In this document: positions 51,177-64,000 of the stretch, one piece after another
How positions within the stretch are numbered: the first letter of the stretch is position 1
Layout: each line of letters begins with the position of its first letter
DNA from: Cloacibacterium rupense
Lineage (GTDB): Bacteria; Bacteroidota; Bacteroidia; Flavobacteriales; Weeksellaceae
Reading direction: 5' to 3'
Length of the DNA stretch: 64,000 nucleotides
Assembly: GCF_014645495.1 (NCBI RefSeq)
Contig: NZ_BMLV01000006.1
Coordinates: 69,298-133,297, forward strand
Made by a program: the position numbers and the translations under genes
Notes under the pieces: model-generated
What the model saw: the letters and a program-made list of their open reading frames with translations, nothing else
Databases searched by the model: none
Told to the model about the DNA's origin: nothing

Positions 51177-52448
51177 TTAAGGAATTATAGTTCCGTCTTT
51201 TATTATTGCATCTTTTTTAATCACAATTACGCCATCTTTTATACAATAGGTATCAAATTCTCCGTCTTGTAAATGCTTATTTCCTATAATTCTGACATTG
51301 TTACCAATATGGCAATTTTTATCTAGAATGGCATTTTCGATATAACAAAATTTACCAACACCAATGCTTGGAATTCCCTTTTTCTCATTTTCTTCTATAT
51401 CTTCTATGGTTTGATAGTAATCTGCACCCATTATATAAGATCTAATTACGGTACTACCTTTATCTATTCTAGTTCTAATACCTACCAAAGTATGCTCTAT
51501 CTTATCTGCCATAATGATACATCCGTCCCCAAAAACAGCTTTATTCACAAAAGAACCATTAATTTTAGATGGAGGCAACATTCTAGCTCTGGTGTAGATT
51601 GGCGAAGAGCTAAACATATTAAATTTAGGAACTTCATTGGTTAAATCCATATTAGCTTCAAAAAATGAGCCGATAGTTCCTATATCTGTCCAATAACCTG
51701 TATATTGGTAGCTCAATGTAGTATATCCTTTACTGATGGCATTTGGGATTAATTCTTTACCAAAATCATCTCCTGGATCTTCTTGGAACATTTTTTTCAA
51801 AACTTTTTTATTGAAAACGTAAATTCCCATAGAAGCTAGGTATTCTCTTCCTTGATATTTCATTTCGTCTGACACTTCAGACTTCCAATCAGGCAACAAA
51901 TCAGAGGCTGGTTTTTCTATAAATGAGGTAATATGGCCTTCTTCGTTAGATTTTAAAATTCCAAAACCTGTAGCGTCTTTAGCATTTACAGGAATAGTAG
52001 CAATGGTAATATCACCTCCGTTTTTCACGTGGAAGTCTATCATTTCTTTAAAATCCATTTGATACAGTTGGTCACCAGACAATATGAGAATATAATCATA
52101 GTCATACTTTTCTAGATGTCTCATAGATTGTCTTACAGCATCTGCGGTACCCTGATACCAATTTTCATTTTCTGTACTTTGTTCTGCTGCTAAAATATCT
52201 ACAAAACCCTTACTAAAGATATCAAAATGATAAGTATTTTTGATATGAGAATTAAGCGATGCAGAATTAAATTGTGTAAGTACCATAATTCTATTAAAGC
52301 CAGAATTAAGGCAATTAGAAATTGGAATATCCACTAACCTGTACTTACCTGCAATAGGAACAGCAGGTTTAGAACGTTTGTCTGTAAGAGGGAACAACCT
52401 GCTTCCGCGTCCTCCTCCTAAAACAATTGAAATAACACTTGGTTTCAT
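51177..52448 (-). CDS. glgC: Glucose-1-phosphate adenylyltransferase
   Basis: 423 residues. Makes ADP-glucose from glucose-1-phosphate and ATP, the control step of glycogen synthesis. Marks: GGGRGSRLFPLTDKRSKPAVPIAGKYRLVDIPISN, GTADAVRQ, IEKP, and a C-terminal left-handed beta-helix (NAILDKNCHIGNNVRIIG). Third in the order glgB-glgA-glgC on the minus strand, 113 bp from glgA. Confidence 0.96.
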   Translation of the reverse strand: MKPSVISIVLGGGRGSRLFPLTDKRSKPAVPIAGKYRLVDIPISNCLNSGFNRIMVLTQFNSASLNSHIKNTYHFDIFSKGFVDILAAEQSTENENWYQGTADAVRQSMRHLEKYDYDYILILSGDQLYQMDFKEMIDFHVKNGGDITIATIPVNAKDATGFGILKSNEEGHITSFIEKPASDLLPDWKSEVSDEMKYQGREYLASMGIYVFNKKVLKKMFQEDPGDDFGKELIPNAISKGYTTLSYQYTGYWTDIGTIGSFFEANMDLTNEVPKFNMFSSSPIYTRARMLPPSKINGSFVNKAVFGDGCIIMADKIEHTLVGIRTRIDKGSTVIRSYIMGADYYQTIEDIEENEKKGIPSIGVGKFCYIENAILDKNCHIGNNVRIIGNKHLQDGEFDTYCIKDGVIVIKKDAIIKDGTIIP

Positions 52449-52561
52449 ATATGTTTTTGTTTTTGAATTTTTTTTAAATCTGAGAGTTATTATTTAAGTT
52501 TTGTTTTTCGAATATATTCTAACATTATATTAATCTAAAACTTCACATGATAATAACTTTT

Positions 52562-53971
52562 CTATTTTTTCTCGTATAAAGTTATGTATTTTTCTGCAGA
52601 ATTTTCCCATGAAAAATCTAAATTCATGATAACATTTCTCAGGTTTTTCATTAATTCTTTGTCCATATACACATACAGTGCTCTCTTAATAGCATGTACG
52701 GCATCATCAGAACCTGGGAAAGTATAATTAAGTCCATAACCGCCAGAAGCGATATCCTTTACCGTGTCTTTTAGACCACCAGTGTAGCGTACAATAGGAA
52801 TGGTACCATAGCGCATAGCATACATTTGGTTTAAACCGCAAGGCTCTACTCTAGAAGGCATTAACAAGAAATCTGAACTTGCATAAATTTTATGAGACAA
52901 ATACTCTTTGTAACCTAAATCTAATGCAAAATTGATATAAAATTCTTTTCTCAGTTCTTTTAAGGTATGTTCTAATTGAAGATTTCCAGAGCCTAAAACT
53001 ATGATATTAAGTTCTCCGCCTGTTTCTTGAACAGCTCTTCTGATAATATCAGGAAGCATATCTGCTCCTTTTTCTCCTGCAAATCTTCCTATGAATGAAA
53101 AAAGTGGTAAATCTGGATTTAGTCGATACTCTTCGCAGAGTTTTTCTTTACTTTTTCTTTTTCCTTCTGTAAAATCTGCTGAAGAAAAATTAAAATCTAG
53201 CATAGAATCAGTTGCAGGATTCCAAACTTCTACATCTATTCCGTTGATAATTCCATGCGCTTTTCTATGTTCTTGTCTTATCAATTCTTCTAGACCTTGA
53301 GCTTCTTCATAGAGTTCATCCATATAACCTTGAGAAACAGCAGTAAATTCGTGACAACATTTAATCATAGAAGCTAGCGGATTTATCCTACCTTTCCAAT
53401 CTAGAAGCCCCCATTTCCATGCATCAAAACGAGGCATATAATTAGACATTTGCCAATCCATACTTCCTTGATACTCACCATTATGTATAGTTCCTATGGT
53501 TTTCACCCCTTTCAAAAATTCAAAATCTGGACAATATTCTACCATAAAAGGCACCAAACCTACGTGAGAATCGTGACAATGTAGTACATCTGGACGAATT
53601 TGCATTGCAGAAAGCCAATGTAAAACCGCTTGTTGAAACGCGATAAACTGCTGACTTTCATCAAAATAACCATACACATTATCTCTGTCTAAAAGTCCTG
53701 GAATTTTCACCAAATACAATTCATATCCCAGAACATTGTGTTTCTCTTTCAGAACCAATACTTGATACATATGATGAATCTGATGTATAAAACCATCAAA
53801 AACCACTTCGAATTCATTTTCATGAACAAACGGCTTGTTGTACCACGGCATTACAACTTTTGCATCTACACCCAATTTTTTTTGATATTTAGGTAAAGCT
53901 CCTACTACATCTGCCAAACCGCCTACTTTAGCAACTGGAAAACATTCTACGCTTAAGTGAAATACTTTCAT
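52562..53971 (-). CDS. glgA: Glycogen synthase (ADP-glucose type)
   Basis: 469 residues, GT5 family GT-B fold. Extends the alpha-1,4-glucan from ADP-glucose. Marks: N-terminal KVGGL (15-19) in FPVAKVGGLADVVGALPKY, the HNGEYQG loop, FIGRFAGEKGAD and C-terminal PSRVEPCGLNQMYAMRYGTIPIVRYTGGLKDTV. Catalytic residues look intact. Middle gene of the glycogen set. Confidence 0.96.
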   Translation of the reverse strand: MKVFHLSVECFPVAKVGGLADVVGALPKYQKKLGVDAKVVMPWYNKPFVHENEFEVVFDGFIHQIHHMYQVLVLKEKHNVLGYELYLVKIPGLLDRDNVYGYFDESQQFIAFQQAVLHWLSAMQIRPDVLHCHDSHVGLVPFMVEYCPDFEFLKGVKTIGTIHNGEYQGSMDWQMSNYMPRFDAWKWGLLDWKGRINPLASMIKCCHEFTAVSQGYMDELYEEAQGLEELIRQEHRKAHGIINGIDVEVWNPATDSMLDFNFSSADFTEGKRKSKEKLCEEYRLNPDLPLFSFIGRFAGEKGADMLPDIIRRAVQETGGELNIIVLGSGNLQLEHTLKELRKEFYINFALDLGYKEYLSHKIYASSDFLLMPSRVEPCGLNQMYAMRYGTIPIVRYTGGLKDTVKDIASGGYGLNYTFPGSDDAVHAIKRALYVYMDKELMKNLRNVIMNLDFSWENSAEKYITLYEKK

Positions 53972-54041
53972 TTTAATTAAAATTTGTGTTTTGTATTATT
54001 GATGATTCATCATTAAAATTAAAAAATGAATCAAGTTTTTA

Positions 54042-55994
54042 TTACTTCTTGATGGTCGTTTTAGAATCAGTCTTTTTAATTTTCTTTTTCTCTGTTTGCT
54101 TCAAGATAAGACCAGAAAGAGGCGGCAAAGTAACAATCATAGAATTGGACTTGTTATTCCAACCGGTTTCTTCGTACCACTTAATTTCGGCTTTAATTCC
54201 GCTTCCTCCAAATTCTTTGTTATCAGAATTTAGGATAACTCTCCATTTTGTACCTTCTTCTATGCCAATTTTGTAATCAAAAGTTCTAGGCGTAAGATTG
54301 AGAACGGTCATTAAAATATCCTCTTCAGTTTTTCCTTTTCTTAAAAAAACATAGATAGAATTATCCTCATCATTTGCTTCAATCCATTCAAAACCATACG
54401 GATTAAAATTATTTTCTGAAAGTGCTTTTTCTTCCTTAAATATTAAATTAAGTTTTTTCACAAAATCTTGCAATCCTTTATGAATAGGATACTGCAAAAG
54501 ATGCCAATCTAAACTTTGGCTAAAATTCCATTCGTGAGTTTGCCCGAATTCTCCACCCATAAAAAGCAATTTATTGCCCGGATGCGCGTACATATAGGTG
54601 TACATTGCACGCAGATTAGCGTGTTTTTGCCATTCATCTCCCGGCATTTTAAAAATCAAACTGCTTTTTCCGTGAACTACTTCATCATGAGAAAGAGGCA
54701 ACATAAAATTCTCATTCAACATATACATGGTACTGAATGTAAGCTTATGATGATGATATTTTCTAGCGATAGGATCTTCTTTGAAATATTTCAGCGTATC
54801 GTGCATCCAACCCATCATCCACTTCATCCCAAAACCGAGACCGCCATCATAAATAGGTTTGGTTACTTTCGGGAAATCACTGCTATCTTCTGCTATGGTC
54901 TGTATATCTGGAAATTCTCTATAAACAATGGTATTCATTTCTTTAATAAAATCTATGGCTTCTAAATTTCGATTATCTCCATAGATATTAGGTTCCCATT
55001 CTCCTTCAGCTCTAGAATAATCTAACTCTAACATAGAACGAACCGCATCTACACGCAAACCATCTGCGTGGTATCTGTCTAACCAAAAACAAGCATTAGA
55101 AATTAAAAAAGATTTCACTTCATTTCTTCCGTAATTGAAGATATGAGATTTCCAATCTGGGTGAAAACCTTTTCTAGGGTCTTCGTGTTCGTAGAGAAAA
55201 CTTCCATCAAAAAAATGCAAACCATTAGCATCTCCCGGAAAATGAGATGGCACCCAATCTAAAATTACTCCGATATCATTTTTGTGCAATTCTTCAATTA
55301 AGTACATCAAATCTTGTGGACCTCCAAAACGTGAACTTGCAGCAAAAAAACCTGTAATTTGGTAACCCCAACTTGGGTCATATGGATATTCCATCACGGG
55401 CATAAATTCTACATGCGTAAAATTCATTTCCTTAACATAAGGCACTAGTCTATCAGCGATTTCTCTATAAGTGAAAAATTTATTCGGATCATCTACACCT
55501 CGCATCCAAGAAGCCAAATGAACTTCGTAAACAGACATTGGGGCATCTAGAGAATTTTTTTGGTAGCGATTTGCCATCCAGTTTTTATCATCCCATTCAT
55601 AATAGGTGGTATTGACAATAGAACCAGCATTGGTAGAATTCTCCCATTGTAACGCATAAGGATCGCCTTTTTCTAGATAATGACCACTGTAAGCTTTGAT
55701 ACCATATTTATAAACATCTCCCCAATCTAAACCTTCTATAAAACCTTCCCAAATCCCCGAATTATCCCATCTCCATAATAATTGATGCGTATGAGAATTC
55801 CACCCATTAAAATTTCCAATTACAGAAACTTCTTTCGCATTAGGTGCCCATACCGCAAAGTAAACACCATTTCTTCCCTCTTTTTGGACTTTATGAGAGC
55901 CCATTTTTTCGTAAAGTTTAAAGTGCTTTCCCTCTTTGAAAAGATGAATATCAAAATCGGTAAAGAGGGTAAAAGGTTCTACTTGATGAGACAT
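54042..55994 (-). CDS. glgB: 1,4-alpha-glucan branching enzyme
   Basis: 650 residues, GH13. Adds alpha-1,6 branches to glycogen. N-terminal CBM48 (VSVIGNFNGWNSHTHQL), barrel motifs DWVPSHFPGD, DGLRVDAVRSML (nucleophile Asp), TIAEDSSDFPKV (acid) and LSHDEVVHG, and a C-terminal beta domain ending with a Lys-rich tail. First gene of the glg set, divergent from the esterase at 56253, which has a related glycogen-binding-like N-domain. Confidence 0.96.
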   Translation of the reverse strand: MSHQVEPFTLFTDFDIHLFKEGKHFKLYEKMGSHKVQKEGRNGVYFAVWAPNAKEVSVIGNFNGWNSHTHQLLWRWDNSGIWEGFIEGLDWGDVYKYGIKAYSGHYLEKGDPYALQWENSTNAGSIVNTTYYEWDDKNWMANRYQKNSLDAPMSVYEVHLASWMRGVDDPNKFFTYREIADRLVPYVKEMNFTHVEFMPVMEYPYDPSWGYQITGFFAASSRFGGPQDLMYLIEELHKNDIGVILDWVPSHFPGDANGLHFFDGSFLYEHEDPRKGFHPDWKSHIFNYGRNEVKSFLISNACFWLDRYHADGLRVDAVRSMLELDYSRAEGEWEPNIYGDNRNLEAIDFIKEMNTIVYREFPDIQTIAEDSSDFPKVTKPIYDGGLGFGMKWMMGWMHDTLKYFKEDPIARKYHHHKLTFSTMYMLNENFMLPLSHDEVVHGKSSLIFKMPGDEWQKHANLRAMYTYMYAHPGNKLLFMGGEFGQTHEWNFSQSLDWHLLQYPIHKGLQDFVKKLNLIFKEEKALSENNFNPYGFEWIEANDEDNSIYVFLRKGKTEEDILMTVLNLTPRTFDYKIGIEEGTKWRVILNSDNKEFGGSGIKAEIKWYEETGWNNKSNSMIVTLPPLSGLILKQTEKKKIKKTDSKTTIKK

Positions 55995-56252: not shown

Positions 56253-57377
56253 ATGAAGTTCTATTTAAGAAGTGCGGAAATTGATGAAAGACCTATCTAT
56301 ATTACTGGAAATTTCAATGATTGGAATCCTAGAGACAACAACTTTGTCTTAGAAAAAGATTCTAAAATTGAAGACTTGTATTTTATAGAGATTAAAGACG
56401 AAAAACTACCAGATCTCATAGAATTCAAATTTACAAAAGGAGGTTGGGAAAGCGTAGAAATAGACCGTTACGGAAATGTAACACCCAACAGAAAAATTGA
56501 AAAATCCAAAAAGAACAGCAAAAATTCTGTTGAAAAATGGAGACTCAATTGGGGGCCTTTCAAAAAAGAGTTTTTCCCGATTGTAGAATTGATTTCGGAG
56601 AAATTTTTTATGCCTCAACTCAATAAATCCAGAAAAGTTTGGGCACTTTTACCTTTTGATTATCACAAAACAAACAAAGAATATCCTGTTTTGTACCTTC
56701 AAGATGCACAAAATCTATTTAATGAAGGCTCAGAATTCGGAAATTGGGAAATTGACAAAAAACTCTCTATCCTCTCCGAATACGGACGTGGAGACATTAT
56801 TATCATCGCCATAGAAAACGGAAAAGACGATAGAATTAAGGAATATATTTTAGATAAATCTTCGCTTACAGACAATGCAGAAGGCAAAAAATACATCAGA
56901 TTTGTAACAGACACGCTGAAACCTTATGTAGATTCTGTTTACAGAACCAAACAAGAGCGAGAATTTACAGGAATCGGCGGCAGTTCTCTTGGTGCTTTAA
57001 TCAGTATTTATGGTGGCTTTTTGTATCCTGAAGTGTATTCTAAATTACTAATTTTTTCGCCGTCGCTTTGGTTAAATCCTGAAAATAATTTTCAATTGTT
57101 GAATTTTAGCAATCATTACAAAACCAAAGTTTATCTATACGGAGGCGAAAAAGAAGGCTCTAAAATGGTGGAAAGAATTCATCTTTTTGAAGATGCCTTA
57201 ATGAACTGGGAGAAAACGCAATCGCTTGATTTTGAAACCAAAGTAAGCATTAATTCTGAAGGCGAACACAACGAATTTTATTGGTCACAAGAATTTCCTA
57301 GAGCAATAGAATGGTTGTTTTTCGACAGCAAAGAAGATCCCACAAAAATTGCGAAAAAAGAAATCACCGAAAGCTAA
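56253..57377 (+). CDS. Esterase with N-terminal glycogen-binding-like (CBM48/E-set) domain
   Basis: 374 residues, no signal peptide. Residues ~1-85 form a CBM48/AMPK-like module (YITGNFNDWNPRDNNFVLEKD) similar in pattern to the N-domain of GlgB across the divergent promoter. Residues ~110-365 are an alpha/beta hydrolase of the esterase D/feruloyl-esterase type (VWALLPFDYHKT, YPVLYLQDAQNLF, nucleophile elbow GGSSLG with Ser 245, LIFSPSLWL, and His in EGEHNEFYW). First gene of the amidoligase cluster, 32 bp from the aminopeptidase gene. An ester of a glucan-linked or small molecule is a possible substrate. Confidence 0.82.
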   Translation: MKFYLRSAEIDERPIYITGNFNDWNPRDNNFVLEKDSKIEDLYFIEIKDEKLPDLIEFKFTKGGWESVEIDRYGNVTPNRKIEKSKKNSKNSVEKWRLNWGPFKKEFFPIVELISEKFFMPQLNKSRKVWALLPFDYHKTNKEYPVLYLQDAQNLFNEGSEFGNWEIDKKLSILSEYGRGDIIIIAIENGKDDRIKEYILDKSSLTDNAEGKKYIRFVTDTLKPYVDSVYRTKQEREFTGIGGSSLGALISIYGGFLYPEVYSKLLIFSPSLWLNPENNFQLLNFSNHYKTKVYLYGGEKEGSKMVERIHLFEDALMNWEKTQSLDFETKVSINSEGEHNEFYWSQEFPRAIEWLFFDSKEDPTKIAKKEITES

Positions 57378-57409
57378 TTTTATTAAATTTTAATTATTTG
57401 AAATAAAAA

Positions 57410-58825
57410 ATGATAGAAAAAATCAACATACAATCAAAAACCGAAAAAAATTATTCTCAAATCTTTGAGTTTATCTCTGAAGAAACTTGGGAAACTAAAA
57501 AAGATATTTTTGACAAAAACACTTCTCTTTTCTTCAGCGGAAAAAAGAATGAAACCTTTGTTTTAATTAAAGATGAAATCACTCATTTCCTCATCGGAAC
57601 AGGAAAATCAACCGCCAAAAACCACGAAATTAAATCTGTTGCACAAAAATTTGCTTATGATTTTCGTAATAAAATCTCTGCAACTCCTACGCTACTTTTA
57701 GCAGACAATTTAGAAAAAGAAAGCATTGTAAAAGGTTTATTTTTAGGAACGTATGAATATCCTTTTTCTCAAAATCATCTCTTTTTTAATGATGATTTTT
57801 CATTAGAATTTGATAATTTTACAGAAAATATCTCTAAAAACACATTATCTCTTTGCAACGGACAATTCGCGGCGATGGATTGGCTTAATAAACCTGCCAA
57901 TTACAAAAAAGTTCTGCATATTTCAGAATTCTTAAAGAATATTTCAGAAAAATATAGCTTAAAATACTCTTGTTTTGATAGAAAAAAATGCGAAGAACTG
58001 GGTTTAGGTGCGTTTCTATCTGTAAATCAAGGAAGTAGCCAAGAAGCAGCTTTCACCATTTTAGAATACAACTGCGGAATTGAAAACGCAAAAACTGTAG
58101 GTTTGGTAGGAAAATGTGTGCTTTTCGACACAGGAGGAATTTCCATAAAACCTTCTGCCAATCTGCATTATATGAAATCTGATATGGGAGGTGCAACTGC
58201 TGTAATCGGAGCATTAATTACCGCAGCGGAAAGAAAAACGCCTGCAAATATTATCGCTATTTTACCCATTACGGACAATGCGGTTGCCAACAATGCGTAT
58301 TTACCCAGCGATGTAATTAAAGCCTACAATGGAAAAACCATAGAAGTTCTAGACACCGATGCAGAAGGTAGAATGACGCTTGCAGACGGACTTTCGTACT
58401 TGTCTAAAAATTATAAAACAGATGTTTTACTAGATTTAGCCACACTTACAGGAAGTTCGGTAAGAATGTTCGGTTATACTTGCGGAGCGCTTTTCAGCAA
58501 TGATAAAAATTTAAAAAATGCTCTAGAAAATGCGGGTGATAAAACCAATCAAAGGCTTTGGAATCTACCACTTTGGGACATTTGGAAAGACGAAATCTCT
58601 TCTGATGTGGCAGATTATAAAAATATTTCGATGAAACCTTTCGGAGATTGTATTGTAGCAGCTAAATTTTTAGAACAATTTATAGAAAATCACCCAAGTT
58701 GGGCACATCTAGACATTGCTGGAGTAGCTTTTGGGAATGTTTCTTATGCCAAAGAAAAAGCTGCAACTGGTTACGGAGTAGAATTATTAACAGAATTTTT
58801 AGAAACATTGGAAGTTGGAAGTTAG
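57410..58825 (+). CDS. Leucyl aminopeptidase family (M17) metallopeptidase
   Basis: 471 residues. C-terminal catalytic domain has all the dinuclear zinc ligands and catalytic residues of PepA: K235 and D240 (VGKCVLFDTGG), K247 (SIKPS), D258 (SDMGG), D317, E319 and R321 (DTDAEGR). The N-terminal ~170 residues are divergent. Members remove N-terminal residues from peptides; in this cluster it may process the ligase product. It is followed by a GAAGTTGG/TCAAAC array. Confidence 0.9.
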   Translation: MIEKINIQSKTEKNYSQIFEFISEETWETKKDIFDKNTSLFFSGKKNETFVLIKDEITHFLIGTGKSTAKNHEIKSVAQKFAYDFRNKISATPTLLLADNLEKESIVKGLFLGTYEYPFSQNHLFFNDDFSLEFDNFTENISKNTLSLCNGQFAAMDWLNKPANYKKVLHISEFLKNISEKYSLKYSCFDRKKCEELGLGAFLSVNQGSSQEAAFTILEYNCGIENAKTVGLVGKCVLFDTGGISIKPSANLHYMKSDMGGATAVIGALITAAERKTPANIIAILPITDNAVANNAYLPSDVIKAYNGKTIEVLDTDAEGRMTLADGLSYLSKNYKTDVLLDLATLTGSSVRMFGYTCGALFSNDKNLKNALENAGDKTNQRLWNLPLWDIWKDEISSDVADYKNISMKPFGDCIVAAKFLEQFIENHPSWAHLDIAGVAFGNVSYAKEKAATGYGVELLTEFLETLEVGS

Positions 58826-58904
58826 AAGATGGAAGAAATCAAACAATATCAAACATTTCAAACAACATCAAACCATATCAAACCATATCAAACAAAAATA
58901 AAAT
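58826..58904 (+). repeat. Intergenic TCAAAC array between the peptidase and the first ATP-grasp gene
   Basis: TCAAAC occurs at 58839, 58849, 58858, 58868, 58878 and 58888, stepping 10, 9, 10, 10, 10 bp, ending 11 bp before the ATG. A GAAGTTGG/AGAAGATGG left half starts in the last codons of the peptidase gene. Confidence 0.8.
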
Positions 58905-60110
58905 ATGAACACATTTGTATGCATTTCAAGTTATTATAAAGGATATGATTTTATGGACGAGTGTAAGAAACTCGGCATTAAAGTCATTCTCATCACTTCA
59001 GAAAATTTAAAAGAAAAAAATTGGCCTTGGCACGCAATAGACGAGGTTTATTATATGCCAGAAACAGAACCTTTTACTTGGAATTTGGATCATTTGGTTC
59101 AAGGTTTTCAATATTTAATGAAAAATAATAAAATCGATTCTGTGGTGGCTTTAGATGATTTCGATGTAGAAAAAGCAGCGATGATTCGTGAGACGTTCAG
59201 AATTCCAGGAATGGGACAAACCACGCACAGATATTTCCGTGATAAGTTGGCAATGAGACAAATGGCGAAAGATTCCGGCATTAACATCCCTGCTTTTACC
59301 GCAATTTTTAATGATGAAATTCTACACGAATTTACACAAAATCACCCTGCACCTTGGGTTTTAAAACCTCGTTCAGAAGCTTCAGCTAGTGGAATTAAGA
59401 AAATTCATTCTACGGAACAACTTTGGGAAATTGTAAATAATCTAGGCGAAGAACGTTATAAATTTTTACTAGAAACCTTCAAACCTGGAGATGTTTTCCA
59501 CGTAGATTCTTTGGTTTACAAAAAGGAAATTGTATTTACTTCTTGTTCACAATACCTTAATACACCTATGGAAGTTTCGCACGAAGGTGGTGTTTTTCGT
59601 ACCAAAACTTTAGGTGCTTATTCTGATGAATTCAAGGCATTAGAGAAAATTAATGCTCAAGTTTTAGAGAAATTTGGGTTGGTAAATGGAGCTACTCACA
59701 CCGAATTTATTCGCGGAAAAGAAGACGGAAAATACTATTTTCTAGAAACTTCGTCTAGAGTTGGTGGCGCTCACATTCCTGATATGGTAGAAGCTTCTAC
59801 TGGAATTAACATTTGGAGAGAATGGGCAAAAATAGAAAACGCTCTCATTAATAACGAACCTTATAAAATTGCAGAACCAACCGGTTTTTATGCAGGTTTA
59901 ATCATTTCTTTAGCTAAAGATTTACATCCTGATTTACAAGATTTTACCACCGAAGAATTGGTAAAAACGTTACCGATTGATTATCACGTAGGTTTGGTTT
60001 ATAAATCTGGAGAAAAAGAAAGATTAAATGAACTTCTAGAAAATGCTGCCAAAATTATTGTAGAAAAACATTTGAGTATTATGCCTCCAAAAGATAAACC
60101 AACCACGTAA
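58905..60110 (+). CDS. ATP-grasp ligase (carbamoyl-phosphate synthase L-like)
   Basis: 401 residues. Preceding Rossmann-like domain (~1-100), then the ATP-grasp fold: WVLKPRSEASASGIKKI (ATP-binding Lys 154 and flexible loop), FKPGDVFHVDSLV, and THTEFIRG, FLETSSRVGGAHI (E267, E281 as likely metal ligands). ATP-grasp enzymes join a carboxylate to an amine through an acyl-phosphate. The usual E-x-N at 281-283 is E-T-S here, so the metal site is altered or shifted. Substrates cannot be deduced; its position argues for peptide- or conjugate-building. Confidence 0.87.
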   Translation: MNTFVCISSYYKGYDFMDECKKLGIKVILITSENLKEKNWPWHAIDEVYYMPETEPFTWNLDHLVQGFQYLMKNNKIDSVVALDDFDVEKAAMIRETFRIPGMGQTTHRYFRDKLAMRQMAKDSGINIPAFTAIFNDEILHEFTQNHPAPWVLKPRSEASASGIKKIHSTEQLWEIVNNLGEERYKFLLETFKPGDVFHVDSLVYKKEIVFTSCSQYLNTPMEVSHEGGVFRTKTLGAYSDEFKALEKINAQVLEKFGLVNGATHTEFIRGKEDGKYYFLETSSRVGGAHIPDMVEASTGINIWREWAKIENALINNEPYKIAEPTGFYAGLIISLAKDLHPDLQDFTTEELVKTLPIDYHVGLVYKSGEKERLNELLENAAKIIVEKHLSIMPPKDKPTT

Positions 60111-60224
60111 ATAAAAGGTTCGATGTAGTTTGAATTTGTTTGAAAGTTCGATTTAGTTGTAAACTCCAAACCCTCAAACAAATTCAAACAATTCAAACAA
60201 TTCAAACAATTTTAAACCATATAT
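60111..60224 (+). repeat. Intergenic GTTTGA/TCAAAC array
   Basis: Left half GTTCGATGTAGTTTGAATTT and further GTTTGA copies, right half TCAAAC at 60174, 60184, 60193, 60202 and TTAAAC near 60212, spaced 9-11 bp; the two halves are complementary around a short hinge. Confidence 0.8.
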
Positions 60225-60938
60225 ATGTCGCACATAGAACATCACAAATATTATTCGCATATTTTAAACAGAGACGTAAAAATAGAAGTTACGGGAACTT
60301 ATGGTTATCCTGTGATAATGTTCCCTACTTCTAAAGGACAATACACCCAAAATCACGATTTCGGGTTGAATGACAGTATTTCATTTTTGGTAGATTCTGG
60401 GAAAATTAAATTGTACAATGTAGAAACTTTTGACAACGAAAATTTATATGCTAATTGGCAAAATCCTCAACAGAGAATTTGGCTTTATGAACAATACGTT
60501 CAGTTTTTGATTCAAGAATTTGTTCCTTTTATCCAAAAAATGCACAGTTGCCATAGAGTTGCCGTTGCAGGAGCAAGTTTTGGAGGTTTCCACGCTGCTA
60601 ATTTTGCGTTTAGATTTCCTGATGTAGTATCTCATTTATTTGCACTTTCTGGTGCTTTTTCTTGCAGAAGTTTAGTTGACTATCACCAAGATATGTTGGT
60701 TTATTTCAATTGTCCAGAAGAATTTTTACCAAATGATGAAGGCTGGAAATACAATCATATGCACATTGTTTTGAGTACTTCTGATGAAGATATTTGCTTA
60801 GACAAAAACATCAGAATGTCTAAAATATTAGGCGCAAAAGGAATCAATCATTGGTATGACGAACAAAAATGGATAAAACACGATTGGCCACTTTGGAGAA
60901 TGGTTTTCCCTAGATTTATGGGAACATTCTTTTCATAA
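60225..60938 (+). CDS. Esterase-family alpha/beta hydrolase
   Basis: 237 residues. Nucleophile elbow GASFGG (Ser 118), FPTSKGQYTQNHDFGL near the N-terminus, and LFALSGAFS after the elbow; matches the esterase D-like family, distinct in sequence from the 56253 protein. Cytoplasmic (no signal peptide). Sits between the two ATP-grasp genes, so its product or substrate is likely linked to the ligase pathway, for example thioester or ester release. Function inferred only. Confidence 0.85.
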   Translation: MSHIEHHKYYSHILNRDVKIEVTGTYGYPVIMFPTSKGQYTQNHDFGLNDSISFLVDSGKIKLYNVETFDNENLYANWQNPQQRIWLYEQYVQFLIQEFVPFIQKMHSCHRVAVAGASFGGFHAANFAFRFPDVVSHLFALSGAFSCRSLVDYHQDMLVYFNCPEEFLPNDEGWKYNHMHIVLSTSDEDICLDKNIRMSKILGAKGINHWYDEQKWIKHDWPLWRMVFPRFMGTFFS

Positions 60939-61009
60939 GCAATGAGTAATTAACAAAAAGATTTAACAACTTAATAAATCAACGATTTTAAAAAAATTAA
61001 AAACATATT

Positions 61010-61954
61010 ATGAAAAAAGTAGGAATTTTATTCGGAATGGAAGATACATTTCCGTGGGCATTTATAGACAGAGTAAACCAGCTAGGAAACGGCGAAGTAG
61101 TAGCTGAAGCTGTACAAATAAATGAACTAAACCAAGGCGAAGATTATGGTTATGCCGTAATTATCGACAGAATTTCGCAAGATGTGCCTTTTTACAGAGC
61201 TTATCTCAAAAACGCAGCGCTTAACGGAACTTACGTCATCAACAATCCTTTTTGGTGGAGTGCAGACGAAAAATTCTTCAACAATTGCTTGATGACAAAA
61301 ATAGGCATTCCTGTTCCTAAAACTTATCTTTTGCCATCTTACGAAAGACCAGATGATACTACAGAAAAGTCTTTCAGAAATTTACAAGTGATTAATTGGG
61401 AGAAAATTTTCTCAGAAATAGGCTTTCCTGCTTATATGAAACCATTTGCAGGAGGCGGTTGGAAAAGCGTTTATAGAGTAGAAAATCCAGATGATTTATT
61501 TGCAAAACACGCAGAAACAGAACAATTGGTAATGATGCTTCAAGAGGAAATCGTTTTTGAAGATTATTACAGAGTGTATTGTTTAGGCAGAAAATACGTT
61601 CACATTATGCCTTATGAACCTAGAAATCCGCACCATTTAAGATATGTAACAGAATCGAAATATTCTGGAGAACAACTAGAAAACATCTTAAAAACCATTC
61701 ACGATTACACGATAAAAATGAATGAAGCACTTGGTTATGATTTCAATACTGTAGAATTTGCTGTAAAAGACGGAATTCCTTATGCGATTGATTTTTGTAA
61801 TCCAGCTCCAGATGCAGACATAAATTCTGTAGGACAAGCCAATTTTGATTGGATTGTAGAAAACGCAGCAAAATACGCCATCGAAAAAGCAAAAGAACAC
61901 AAAGATGGTGCTCAAAATATTGATTGGGGAAATTTTGTAAAAGGGAAATTTTAA
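61010..61954 (+). CDS. ATP-grasp ligase (RimK/D-Ala ligase-like)
   Basis: 314 residues. N-terminal domain (VGILFGMEDTFPWAFIDRVN), then the ATP-grasp domain with MKPFAGGGWKSVYRV (Lys 144), LQEEIVFEDYYRVYCLG, NTVEFAVKDG (E249) and the metal-binding AIDFCNPAPDAD (D261, N264). Only distantly like the 58905 ligase, so it should catalyse a different condensation. Follows the esterase by 71 bp, without an obvious repeat array in that gap. Confidence 0.87.
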   Translation: MKKVGILFGMEDTFPWAFIDRVNQLGNGEVVAEAVQINELNQGEDYGYAVIIDRISQDVPFYRAYLKNAALNGTYVINNPFWWSADEKFFNNCLMTKIGIPVPKTYLLPSYERPDDTTEKSFRNLQVINWEKIFSEIGFPAYMKPFAGGGWKSVYRVENPDDLFAKHAETEQLVMMLQEEIVFEDYYRVYCLGRKYVHIMPYEPRNPHHLRYVTESKYSGEQLENILKTIHDYTIKMNEALGYDFNTVEFAVKDGIPYAIDFCNPAPDADINSVGQANFDWIVENAAKYAIEKAKEHKDGAQNIDWGNFVKGKF

Positions 61955-62092
61955 TTGAGTTCGAGGTGGTTTGATGTAGTTTGAATTGTTTGATTTAGTT
62001 ACAAATTTCAAACAATTTCAAACCTTAAAACAATTTCAAACCTTAAAACAGTTTCAAACCATCAGAAAAAAATTTTCAAAACACAAAAATAT
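61955..62092 (+). repeat. Intergenic GTTTGA/TCAAAC array before the GCS2 gene
   Basis: Left half GTTCGAGGTGGTTTGATGTA and GTTTGAATTGTTTGATTTAG (61958-61999); right half TCAAAC at 62008, 62018, 62036 and 62054 with TTAAAAC in the intermediate 9-bp steps, close to the array at 60111. Confidence 0.8.
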
Positions 62093-63202
62093 ATGGAAGA
62101 AAAACACAAATTTACAATTGGTATAGAAGAAGAATATCAAATAATAGATATAGAAAGCAGAGATTTGGTTTCTCACGTTTCTAAAATTATTGAAGGCAGC
62201 CATGCTACACTTCACGAAAAACTCAAAAACGAAATGCATGAGTCTGTAGTAGAAATGGAAACCAGCATTTGCCAAAACATAAAACAAGCCAGAGAAGAAA
62301 TGTACTCTCTAAGAAGACATTTAGTAGAGTTGGCAAAATCTCATAACTTGAGAGTTTCTGGCGGCGGAACTCACCCTTTTTCTGATTGGAAACTTCAAAA
62401 TATCACCACGAAAGATCGTTACGACATCATTGTAAATGATATGGGAGATGTAGCTCGTTCTAATCTTATTTTCGGTTTGCATGTTCACGTTGGAGTTCCT
62501 AACAGAGAAGAAGGCATTAAAATCCAAAATATTGCAAGGTATTTTTTACCTCATATTTATGCTCTTTCTACTTGTTCACCATTTTGGGAAGGCAGAAACA
62601 CCGGATTTAAATCTTATCGACAAAAAGTATTTGCAAAATTTCCTAGAACAGGCATTCCAAGTTATTTTAATTGTTGGGCAGATTTTGAACAATATGTAAA
62701 TATTCTTGTAAAAACAGGAACCATTGATAATGCTAAAAAAATATGGTGGGATCTAAGGGTACATCCCATTTATCCAACTATAGAATTTAGAATCTGTGAT
62801 ATGCCACTTAGATTAGAAGAAACACTCTGCCTAGCTGCTCTTATGCAATGTATTGTTGCTAAAATTTACAAACTTCATCAGCAGAATATAAGTTTTAGAA
62901 GTTATAGAAGAATTCTAATTGCAGAAAACAAATGGAGAGCTTCTAAAATGGGAATAGATGCGGATTTAATAGACTTCGGAAAAGAAATAACCGTTCCTTA
63001 CAACGCTCTATTAGAAGAATTATTAGAATTCATAGATGATGTGGTAGATGATTTGGATTGCCGAAAAGAGGTAGAATATGCCCGCGAAATTGTAAAAATG
63101 GGTACAGGTGCAGATAGAAAACTTAATGTTTATAAAGAAACTGGTGACCTGAAAAAAGTGGTAGACTATATGATTGCCGAAACAGAATATGGTCTATTTT
63201 AA
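62093..63202 (+). CDS. Carboxylate-amine ligase, GCS2 family (YbdK-like)
   Basis: 369 residues. Glutamine-synthetase-like fold of the gamma-glutamylcysteine ligase 2 family (COG2170). Marks: FTIGIEEEYQIID (metal-binding Glu residues 12-14), VSGGGTHPFSDW (~88-99), FGLHVHVGVPNREEG (His 130, 132), and LRVHPIYPTIEFRICDMPLRLEE (~221-243). Related enzymes couple glutamate or similar acids to amines with ATP; E. coli YbdK has weak glutamate-cysteine ligase activity. In this cluster it is the third amide-bond-forming enzyme. Confidence 0.92.
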   Translation: MEEKHKFTIGIEEEYQIIDIESRDLVSHVSKIIEGSHATLHEKLKNEMHESVVEMETSICQNIKQAREEMYSLRRHLVELAKSHNLRVSGGGTHPFSDWKLQNITTKDRYDIIVNDMGDVARSNLIFGLHVHVGVPNREEGIKIQNIARYFLPHIYALSTCSPFWEGRNTGFKSYRQKVFAKFPRTGIPSYFNCWADFEQYVNILVKTGTIDNAKKIWWDLRVHPIYPTIEFRICDMPLRLEETLCLAALMQCIVAKIYKLHQQNISFRSYRRILIAENKWRASKMGIDADLIDFGKEITVPYNALLEELLEFIDDVVDDLDCRKEVEYAREIVKMGTGADRKLNVYKETGDLKKVVDYMIAETEYGLF

Positions 63203-63220
63203 GAATCAATTTGTTTTATT

Positions 63221-63228
63221 TACTTTTG
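63221..63228 (+). promoter_or_regulatory. Putative -7 element before the glutamine amidotransferase gene
   Basis: TACTTTTG, a TAnnTTTG match 16 bp before the ATG at 63244. It suggests an additional internal promoter late in the cluster. Confidence 0.4.
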
Positions 63229-63243
63229 CAAAAATTCAAAAAA

Positions 63244-64000
63244 ATGACAGAGATAAAATTGGCATTGCTAGATATGAACAACAATCATCCTAATCAAGGA
63301 ATGAGGAATATCCGTGAAATTTCAGCAGCATTTCAAAAAAATTCTGAGTTTGAGGTGAAAATTGAATATTTCGATGTTCGTTATAAAAACGAAATGCCAA
63401 ATGTATCAGATTTTGATATTTTTATTTCATCTGGTGGACCAGGAACTCCGCACAAAGAAGGCCTTGATTGGGAAGAAAAATTTTCAAATTTTTTAGATGA
63501 AATTCTAGCTTTCAATAAAAAAAATGAACAAAAAAAATTCTTATTTCTTATCTGTCATAGCTTCCAATTGGCAAGCATTCACTGGGAAATTGGCAATGTT
63601 TGCAAAAGAAGGTCATATTCTTTCGGAATTATGCCCATTCACAAAACAGATGAAGGAGACGAAGAATTTTTATTCCAAAATCTACCAGACCCGTTTTTTG
63701 CTGTAGATTCTAGAGCTTATCAATTAATAGAACCAAACTATGAATCTATCTATAATTTGGGTGCAAAATTGGTAGCGATAGAGAAGTTTCGTCCACACGT
63801 TGCTCATTTAGAAAGAGCCATTATGGCGATTAGATTTTCTGATGAAATTTTCGGGACTCAATTCCATCCAGAAGCAGATCCTCTCGGAATGATGGAAAAT
63901 CTAAAAGATGAAGCCAACAAAGAAGCAATGATAGAAAACTACGGCTTAGAAAAATACCACGAAACGCTAGATAGAATAAATGATGAGGATAAAATTGTAC
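63244..64000 (+). CDS. Class I glutamine amidotransferase-like protein (3' end outside window)
   Basis: 252 visible codons from ATG 63244, open to the right edge. Opening IKLALLDMNNNHPNQGMRNI; SSGGPGTPH oxyanion-type loop; nucleophile Cys 104 in LICHSFQLA; HAHLERAIMAIRF-like region and GTQFHPEADP with the catalytic His/Glu. The elbow is C-H-S-F-Q, whereas class I amidotransferases normally have C-x-G-x-Q. Could release ammonia from glutamine for a partner, or hydrolyse a gamma-glutamyl product of the GCS2 enzyme 41 bp upstream. C-terminus unseen. Confidence 0.85.
   Translation, partial: MTEIKLALLDMNNNHPNQGMRNIREISAAFQKNSEFEVKIEYFDVRYKNEMPNVSDFDIFISSGGPGTPHKEGLDWEEKFSNFLDEILAFNKKNEQKKFLFLICHSFQLASIHWEIGNVCKRRSYSFGIMPIHKTDEGDEEFLFQNLPDPFFAVDSRAYQLIEPNYESIYNLGAKLVAIEKFRPHVAHLERAIMAIRFSDEIFGTQFHPEADPLGMMENLKDEANKEAMIENYGLEKYHETLDRINDEDKIV

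Follow-up and report, generated by a model that had tools for sequence, protein, structure and literature searches.

The DNA analysed here, hereafter called the window, is a stretch of 64,000 nucleotides from Cloacibacterium rupense (contig NZ_BMLV01000006.1, positions 69,298 to 133,297), and its right end carries an operon-like run of eight genes, all on the + strand, in which amide-bond-forming ligases are combined with hydrolases. Seven of these genes start inside the window and the eighth lies beyond its right edge. The run begins with est1 (56253..57377), which codes for an esterase of family PF00756, followed by M17 (57410..58825), a leucyl-aminopeptidase-like peptidase (PF00883, 1.5e-100), AG1 (58905..60110), an ATP-grasp protein of the L-amino-acid-ligase type according to its Pfam and PDB matches, est2 (60225..60938), a second PF00756 esterase or alpha/beta hydrolase, and AG2 (61010..61954), an ATP-grasp protein with the fold of RimK, LysX and ArgX. 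The next gene, GCS2 (62093..63202), encodes a carboxylate-amine ligase of the YbdK superfamily (NF010039), GAT (63244..64000, cut by the window edge, true end ~64083) a class I glutamine-amidotransferase-like protein of 279 amino acids (aa), and AG3 (~64170-65351, or G000:C6:133467-134645, outside the window), the last gene of the run, a third ATP-grasp protein of 393 aa. The names AG1, AG2 and AG3 are working names given in this analysis. An initial annotation of this DNA had described seven co-directional genes, and all seven frames were indeed found on one strand at about the positions it gave; the gene set stood, the extent did not, as GAT runs past the edge and AG3 follows just outside it. 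We propose that the eight genes probably constitute one pathway, independent of non-ribosomal peptide synthetases (NRPS), which makes and turns over a small peptide or peptide-amine conjugate.

AG1 belongs to the ATP-grasp superfamily by its Pfam match, and AG2 and AG3 by confident structural models and the folds that these models match. In a sequence search, AG1 matched solved L-amino acid ligases (PDB 4wd3, 1.9e-14, and 3vot, 2.6e-10), and it scored far under the NCBIfam cut-offs. AG2 had no Pfam match, and because its match to the NCBIfam family rimK_fam (6.8e-8, 32.2 bits) is below the cut-off of 143.4, we classed it as a protein with a RimK-like fold and not as RimK. The AG2 model (predicted local distance difference test, pLDDT, 92.6, from an alignment of 47 sequences) was matched by RimK with a Z score of 22.1 and by ArgX and LysX with Z 21.0-21.4, at a root-mean-square deviation (rmsd) of 2.8-3.0 across 254-266 residues. 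GCS2 passed the NCBIfam cut-offs of NF010039 (536.9 versus 371 bits) and TIGR02050 (308.3 versus 176.4 bits) and is thus of the YbdK type, with 1tt4 and 1r8g (YbdK) as solved relatives. AG3 remained under the cut-off of every Pfam family listed, including the glutathionylspermidine synthase family PF03738 (17.4 bits, gathering threshold 29.3), with which it shares only the fold. The best matches of the AG3 model (pLDDT 92.0, alignment of 25 sequences) were the Escherichia coli proteins YgiC (Z 25.9, rmsd 3.5, 343 residues), YjfC (Z 25.6) and GspS (Z 25.3), together with human (Z 24.6), yeast and soybean glutathione or homoglutathione synthetases (Z 23-25) and the fungal E-64 ligase Cp1B (Z 22.4). 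Matches of this fold family reach down to Z 19.5, after which the next rows drop to 12.8 and then to ~7. At the sequence level, AG3 resembled YgiC weakly and in one region only (profile positions 246-318, E 0.032, hhalign probability 76.9%). The family assignments of the initial annotation were thus upheld by Pfam and NCBIfam, for AG2 by way of the rimK_fam match under its cut-off, and of its "three unrelated" ligases GCS2 is distinct, whereas the other two are both ATP-grasps.

Since RimK and the carrier-protein ligases LysX and ArgX are the best structural matches of AG2, the locus could in principle serve to tag peptides or proteins, with AG2 acting on a protein and the hydrolases taking the tag off again. 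We consider this unlikely, as no recurrent small gene for a carrier or tag was noticed among the open reading frames of at least 90 aa in the loci read, shorter frames not having been searched, and the remaining ligases look like small-molecule ligases.

The proposal of one pathway for small molecules rests in the first place on gene order. We compared the best 80 of 591 confirmed AG2 loci, which hence are close relatives (AG2 identity 71-81%). The complete eight-gene order is kept at 56 of them and the order est2-AG2-GCS2-GAT-AG3 at 20 further ones, so that a module of at least five genes is present at 76 of the 80; the other four loci hold fewer genes, and two of these are on short contigs. 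Some of the five-gene loci, e.g. L053, L065 and L072 from Kaistella, do have M17 and AG1 in place, and est1 not. The eight-gene form occurs in Chryseobacterium, Epilithonimonas, Elizabethkingia, Halpernia, Soonwooa and Cruoricaptor, among others, and the shorter form in Flavobacteriaceae and Cytophagales, e.g. Emticicia. Conservation of the order in related genera was one of the points on which the initial annotation had staked its case, and here the order is kept. We also inspected 56 diverse AG2 loci, 20 AG1 loci and 20 AG3 loci, hand-picked from the match lists. The arrangement was looser at the diverse AG2 loci, with the five-gene order in 12 (in 8 of them with nothing more) and mostly intermediate forms in the rest. 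Of the 52 genomes that carry both AG1 and AG2, just 9 have the two within 12 kb of each other, and at the 20 distant AG1 loci we found est1-M17-AG1 in six and M17-AG1 in two. As the modules est1-M17-AG1 and est2-AG2-GCS2-GAT-AG3 are apart or partly dispersed elsewhere, we regard the operon in the window as a fusion of the two.

Two further observations concern AG2 itself. Its distribution in the genus of the window is patchy, with near-identical copies in G002 and G004, weak matches in G001 and G003, and none in G005 and G006. In two distant genomes an aromatic amino acid lyase gene (PF00221) is situated directly 3' of AG2 (L163:8002-9498 and L165:10550-12082).

The second line of evidence is the distribution of the genes over 247 genomes of the phylum, which the named relatives suggest to be Bacteroidota. 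Cut-offs were E <= 1e-30 for GCS2 and AG1, 1e-10 for GAT and 1e-20 for a circularly permuted ATP-grasp ligase that is discussed below. AG2 was found in 90 genomes at E <= 0.001, of which four weak ones (G102, G117, G231 and G271, E ~4.7e-5 or weaker) were dropped, the rest being below 1e-40, and AG3 matched in 74 genomes, of which G102 was dropped because its match covered 25 residues. This left 86 genomes with AG2 and 73 with AG3, next to 79 with GCS2, 59 with GAT and 14 with the permuted ATP-grasp. AG2 and AG3 occurred together in 70 genomes, AG2 alone in 16, AG3 alone in three and neither in 158 (Fisher p 9e-42, related genomes not being independent). In 29 of these 70 genomes, spread over 11 families, the two genes were unlinked, that is, separated by over 12 kb or placed on different contigs, a few of which cases may be contig breaks, e.g. 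in G121. AG1 was searched in every AG2 genome and in 74 of the 161 genomes lacking AG2; it was present in 52 of the 86 and in none of the 74 (p 2e-19). AG2 furthermore accompanies GAT in 58 of 59 genomes and GCS2 in 70 of 79, and AG2, AG3 and GCS2 are found together in 65 of the 247 genomes. On plasmids, neither AG2 nor AG3 had a match at E 1e-5 or at 1e-3, and relatives of GCS2 were found in 72 plasmid records, in three of which, the ones inspected, no partner ligase was annotated.

These distributions bear on the question of whether the window simply holds two or more unrelated operons as neighbours. The rarity of AG1 within 12 kb of AG2 and the separate modules at other inspected loci would fit such a coincidence, but the confinement of AG1 to AG2 genomes among those tested and the 29 unlinked AG2-AG3 pairs go against it, and we consider it very unlikely. 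The conserved order, the co-distribution even when the genes are unlinked, and the occurrence of AG1 only in AG2 genomes indicate that the ligases serve one pathway, a suggestion already made in the initial annotation and now strongly supported.

The distribution also suggests that one ligase can be exchanged for another. A circularly permuted ATP-grasp gene (PF14403-like) adjoins AG2 in 13 genomes from seven families, and all 13 are without AG3; in G192, AG3 is present together with a weaker, unlinked copy of the permuted ligase. Counting either partner, 83 of the 86 AG2 genomes (83 of 247 overall) have AG2 with AG3 or with the permuted ligase. When presence was shuffled within the 16 families that contain genomes with and without AG2, this combination was expected in 35.1 genomes and observed in 53, and none of 100000 shuffles reached as high. 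As a control, the glycogen gene glgC was present in 23 of 26 genomes with AG2 and in 20 of 24 without it, from six of the shuffled families, which amounts to no association. The solved relative of the permuted ligase is 3n6x, named a putative glutathionylspermidine synthase, and 3n6x is also among the fold matches of the AG3 model (Z 23.2). A direct sequence comparison of AG3 and the permuted ligase was not significant (hhalign probability 2.6%). Based on the complementary occurrence and the common match to 3n6x, the role of the second core ligase seems to be filled by either of two distant families that share a fold.

In the hydrolases of the run, the presumed catalytic residues are conserved. 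In M17, of which 8pz0 is the nearest solved relative, K235, D240, K247, D258, D317, E319 and R321, which we take to be the metal-binding and catalytic residues, are each at least 98% conserved among 64 relatives, in line with the intact zinc site noted in the initial annotation. The same level of conservation was found for S245 and H339 of est1 (60 relatives), for S118, D189 and H219 of est2 (103 relatives), which we assume to be COG4947, and for Cys104, His208 and Glu210 of GAT (103 relatives), presumably the triad of class I glutamine amidotransferases (GATases), a family to which GAT belongs by its Pfam score (37.4 versus a cut-off of 22.8 bits). Relatives of est2 are also found on plasmids (14 records), and of the four contexts outside Bacteroidota that were inspected, an ATP-grasp gene adjoins in Peptoclostridium, Sinorhizobium and Pararhizobium, and none was next door in Thiodictyon; thus, the pairing of a ligase with such an esterase extends beyond this cluster. 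The Peptoclostridium ATP-grasp is 23% identical to AG1. Such two-gene units of an ATP-grasp and an est2-like hydrolase were seen in Bacillota and Alphaproteobacteria (L189:6791-8756, L191:6735-8750 and L232:3825-5753).

Other peptidases were found next to the ligases, each in one genome or in a small group. An M29 peptidase sits between GCS2 and AG3, in the slot of GAT, at L150 and L168, an M14 carboxypeptidase lies upstream of AG1 at L204 and L205, and an M42 peptidase upstream of GAT-AG3 at L213. In genomes of two families, an Amidohydro_3 protein abuts or overlaps AG3, identified by Pfam at four loci (L224:5957-7423, L226:5392-6837, L227:8240-9763 and L231:6002-7465) and by position at L230. 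M29 was considered as a general substitute for GAT and rejected, since this subfamily occurs in only three of the 247 genomes (G110, G148 and G263), in none of which GAT was found, and so can explain only a small part of the 27 AG3 genomes in which GAT is missing. The diversity of peptidases next to the ligases fits a peptide-like product with recycling hydrolases, as the initial annotation had suggested.

GAT may be a gamma-glutamyl peptidase that hydrolyses gamma-glutamyl amides, judging from its family. Gamma-glutamyl hydrolases are found among the class I GATase-like proteins, and PuuA and PuuD handle putrescine via gamma-glutamylation. By analogy, the locus might encode a catabolic route in which gamma-glutamylation prepares amines or dipeptides for processing, after which GAT frees them, and M17 in the operon, or M29 or M14 in some other genomes, would suit such a route. 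However, a catabolic route hardly explains four ATP-using ligases, and none of the eight genes codes for an oxidase, dehydrogenase, transaminase or transporter, so that we find it quite unlikely.

A different possibility is a glutathione-like cycle around a gamma-Glu-X-Y tripeptide, in which GCS2 would form gamma-glutamyl-X, AG3 would attach the third residue, GAT would remove gamma-Glu, M17 would split the dipeptide, and the esterases would act on S- or O-acyl conjugates. YbdK is the closest solved protein to GCS2, and the match of AG3 to the eukaryotic (homo)glutathione synthetases is in agreement with this cycle. On the other hand, it leaves AG1 and AG2 without a role, and five of the 70 genomes with AG2 and AG3 had no detectable GCS2. 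A replacement for a missing thiol can be discarded, since the bacillithiol gene for BshC is near-universal (242 of 247 genomes, 237 of them over the cut-off) and occurs in 84 of the 86 AG2 genomes as well as in 158 of the 161 others, so that there is no thiol gap to fill. Because of this and of the five genomes in which GCS2 was not found, a plain thiol tripeptide becomes less likely, and we see the tripeptide cycle as conceivable but rather unlikely. The thiol role that the initial annotation had listed among the possible functions is not favoured either, and its interpretation as a whole is partly supported.

This brings us back to the NRPS-independent synthesis and turnover of a peptide or peptide-amine conjugate. 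What we have here are stand-alone ligases tied together by conserved order and co-distribution, i.e. an NRPS-independent amidoligase cluster. The gene set and its order, the conserved catalytic residues, the predicted folds of AG2 and AG3, the co-distribution, and the complementarity of AG3 and the permuted ligase were seen directly, and from these we infer the chemistry, order and direction of the steps. Acyl phosphates are the usual chemistry of these ligase families. The stand-alone ligases would each activate a carboxylate as an acyl phosphate and add one unit. GCS2 would form an amide, probably a gamma-glutamyl amide, AG2 and AG1 would add amino acids in the manner of RimK/LysX and L-amino acid ligases, and AG3, or elsewhere the permuted ATP-grasp, would finish the chain by joining an amine or amino acid to its C-terminal carboxylate, in the way of the ligases for glutathione and glutathionylspermidine and of YgiC/YjfC. 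The fold predicted for AG3 points to such C-terminal capping. A polyamine would be a possible substrate of AG3, as its nearest folds join peptides to spermidine. GAT would most likely strip a gamma-glutamyl or amide group, M17 (elsewhere M29, M14 or an amidohydrolase) would trim the peptide, and the esterases might release an acyl group. What the GATase and the esterases do, the order of coupling and the gamma-glutamyl step itself are all read from family resemblance and should be taken as provisional.

Several findings weigh against a single pathway with these steps. AG1 has a serine at a metal-binding position that is commonly asparagine in ATP-grasps, and AG3 has a glutamine where the Glu-x-Asn motif usually has asparagine. 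AG2 is the sole cluster gene nearby in 13 of the 56 chosen diverse loci, and 12 of the 20 distant AG1 loci have neither M17 nor a module-type est1 beside AG1. The four ligases AG1, AG2, AG3 and GCS2 are all present in just 35 of the 247 genomes, which implies that parts are dispensable. The genomes with AG2 and AG3 in which GCS2 was not found (G092, G119, G213, G233 and G267), and the 27 of 73 AG3 genomes in which GAT was not found, imply that the gamma-glutamyl step is not universal. Finally, both AG3 and the permuted ligase are missing from G065, G142 and G215, the three genomes whose AG2 is the most distant (32-43% identity).

With regard to the surroundings of the run, a terminator-like hairpin followed by a T run is located 3' of AG3 (~65394-65411, or L002:11692-11709); the scan that found it is a consensus match only, with nine sites against 4.5 in shuffles (standard deviation 2.0). 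On the other side, genes that we take from the look of their sequence to be glgC, glgA and glgB (51177..55994, - strand) are divergent from est1, and we left these glycogen genes out of the pathway. The est1 protein has an N-terminal extension of ~120 aa that starts with GNFNDW, and its GNFNDWNP stretch (window 56253-56600) is reminiscent of glycogen-binding or enterochelin-esterase N-terminal domains; a Pfam search reported no domain over this part. A role of the cluster in glycogen metabolism would be suggested by this glycogen-binding-like start and by the position of glg genes, which run divergently next to the cluster here and at many loci of Weeksellaceae, and which are also found close to AG2 at L155 and L172, both distant loci, and close to AG1 at L211. 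Despite these suggestive neighbours, the lack of association between glgC and AG2 reported above weakens the link, and we judge such a role to be most improbable.

Taking the peptide or peptide-amine pathway one step further, we tentatively put forward as a possibility that Bacteroidota have a widespread metabolite, either a peptidyl-polyamine or a short branched peptide, built by a core of AG2 and a GspS-fold ligase drawn from either of two interchangeable families and extended with further units by GCS2 and AG1, each with its cognate hydrolase. If true, such a metabolite would define a new small-molecule class on a par with glutathionylspermidine, the core pair being present in about a third of the sampled genomes. 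That AG2 is strictly paired with its partner ligase, and AG1 with AG2, even over large distances, makes a defined set of enzymes out of what was a loose "amidoligase cluster". The product could be within reach of one comparative metabolomics experiment, and the ligases are candidates for biocatalysis, as has been shown for Cp1B.

NRPS-independent amidoligase clusters with peptidases are as such an already known kind. Iyer and colleagues reportedly predicted, in 2009, amidoligase neighbourhoods of ATP-grasp and GCS2 ligases with peptidases, and the present set may be among them. A literature search (amidoligases, COG2170, COG4947, YbdK, YgiC/YjfC, Cp1B, GspS and Bacteroidetes), which did not extend to the 2009 survey itself or to the bulk of the subscription literature, gave no description of this gene set. 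Among characterized enzymes, the L-amino acid ligases (4wd3, and BL00235, 3vot) match AG1 in sequence, and AG1 differs from them by the serine mentioned above. RimK, LysX and ArgX share the fold of AG2 and differ by an identity of 14-18% and by the carrier protein, for which no gene was noticed here. YbdK, for which gamma-glutamyl:cysteine ligase activity is given by a reference title cited in PMC2588565, is the family counterpart of GCS2, whereas GCS2 has its place in a pathway of many genes. YgiC, YjfC and GspS of E. coli share the full-length fold of the AG3 model, but with only 10-15% identity and with the difference in the Glu-x-Asn motif. YgiC and YjfC are peptide-spermidine ligases according to a title cited in PMC12568646, and RefSeq names YgiC accordingly; PMC12506659 describes YgiC as lacking glutathionylspermidine synthase activity, and the fold thus does not fix the substrate of AG3. 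Based on the modelled fold and the weak sequence match, AG3 may possibly be a YgiC/YjfC-like peptide-spermidine ligase. The eukaryotic glutathione and homoglutathione synthetases and fungal Cp1B likewise have the fold of AG3 at 12-13% identity, and Cp1B, as described in PMC12568646, uses this same fold to make pseudodipeptides.

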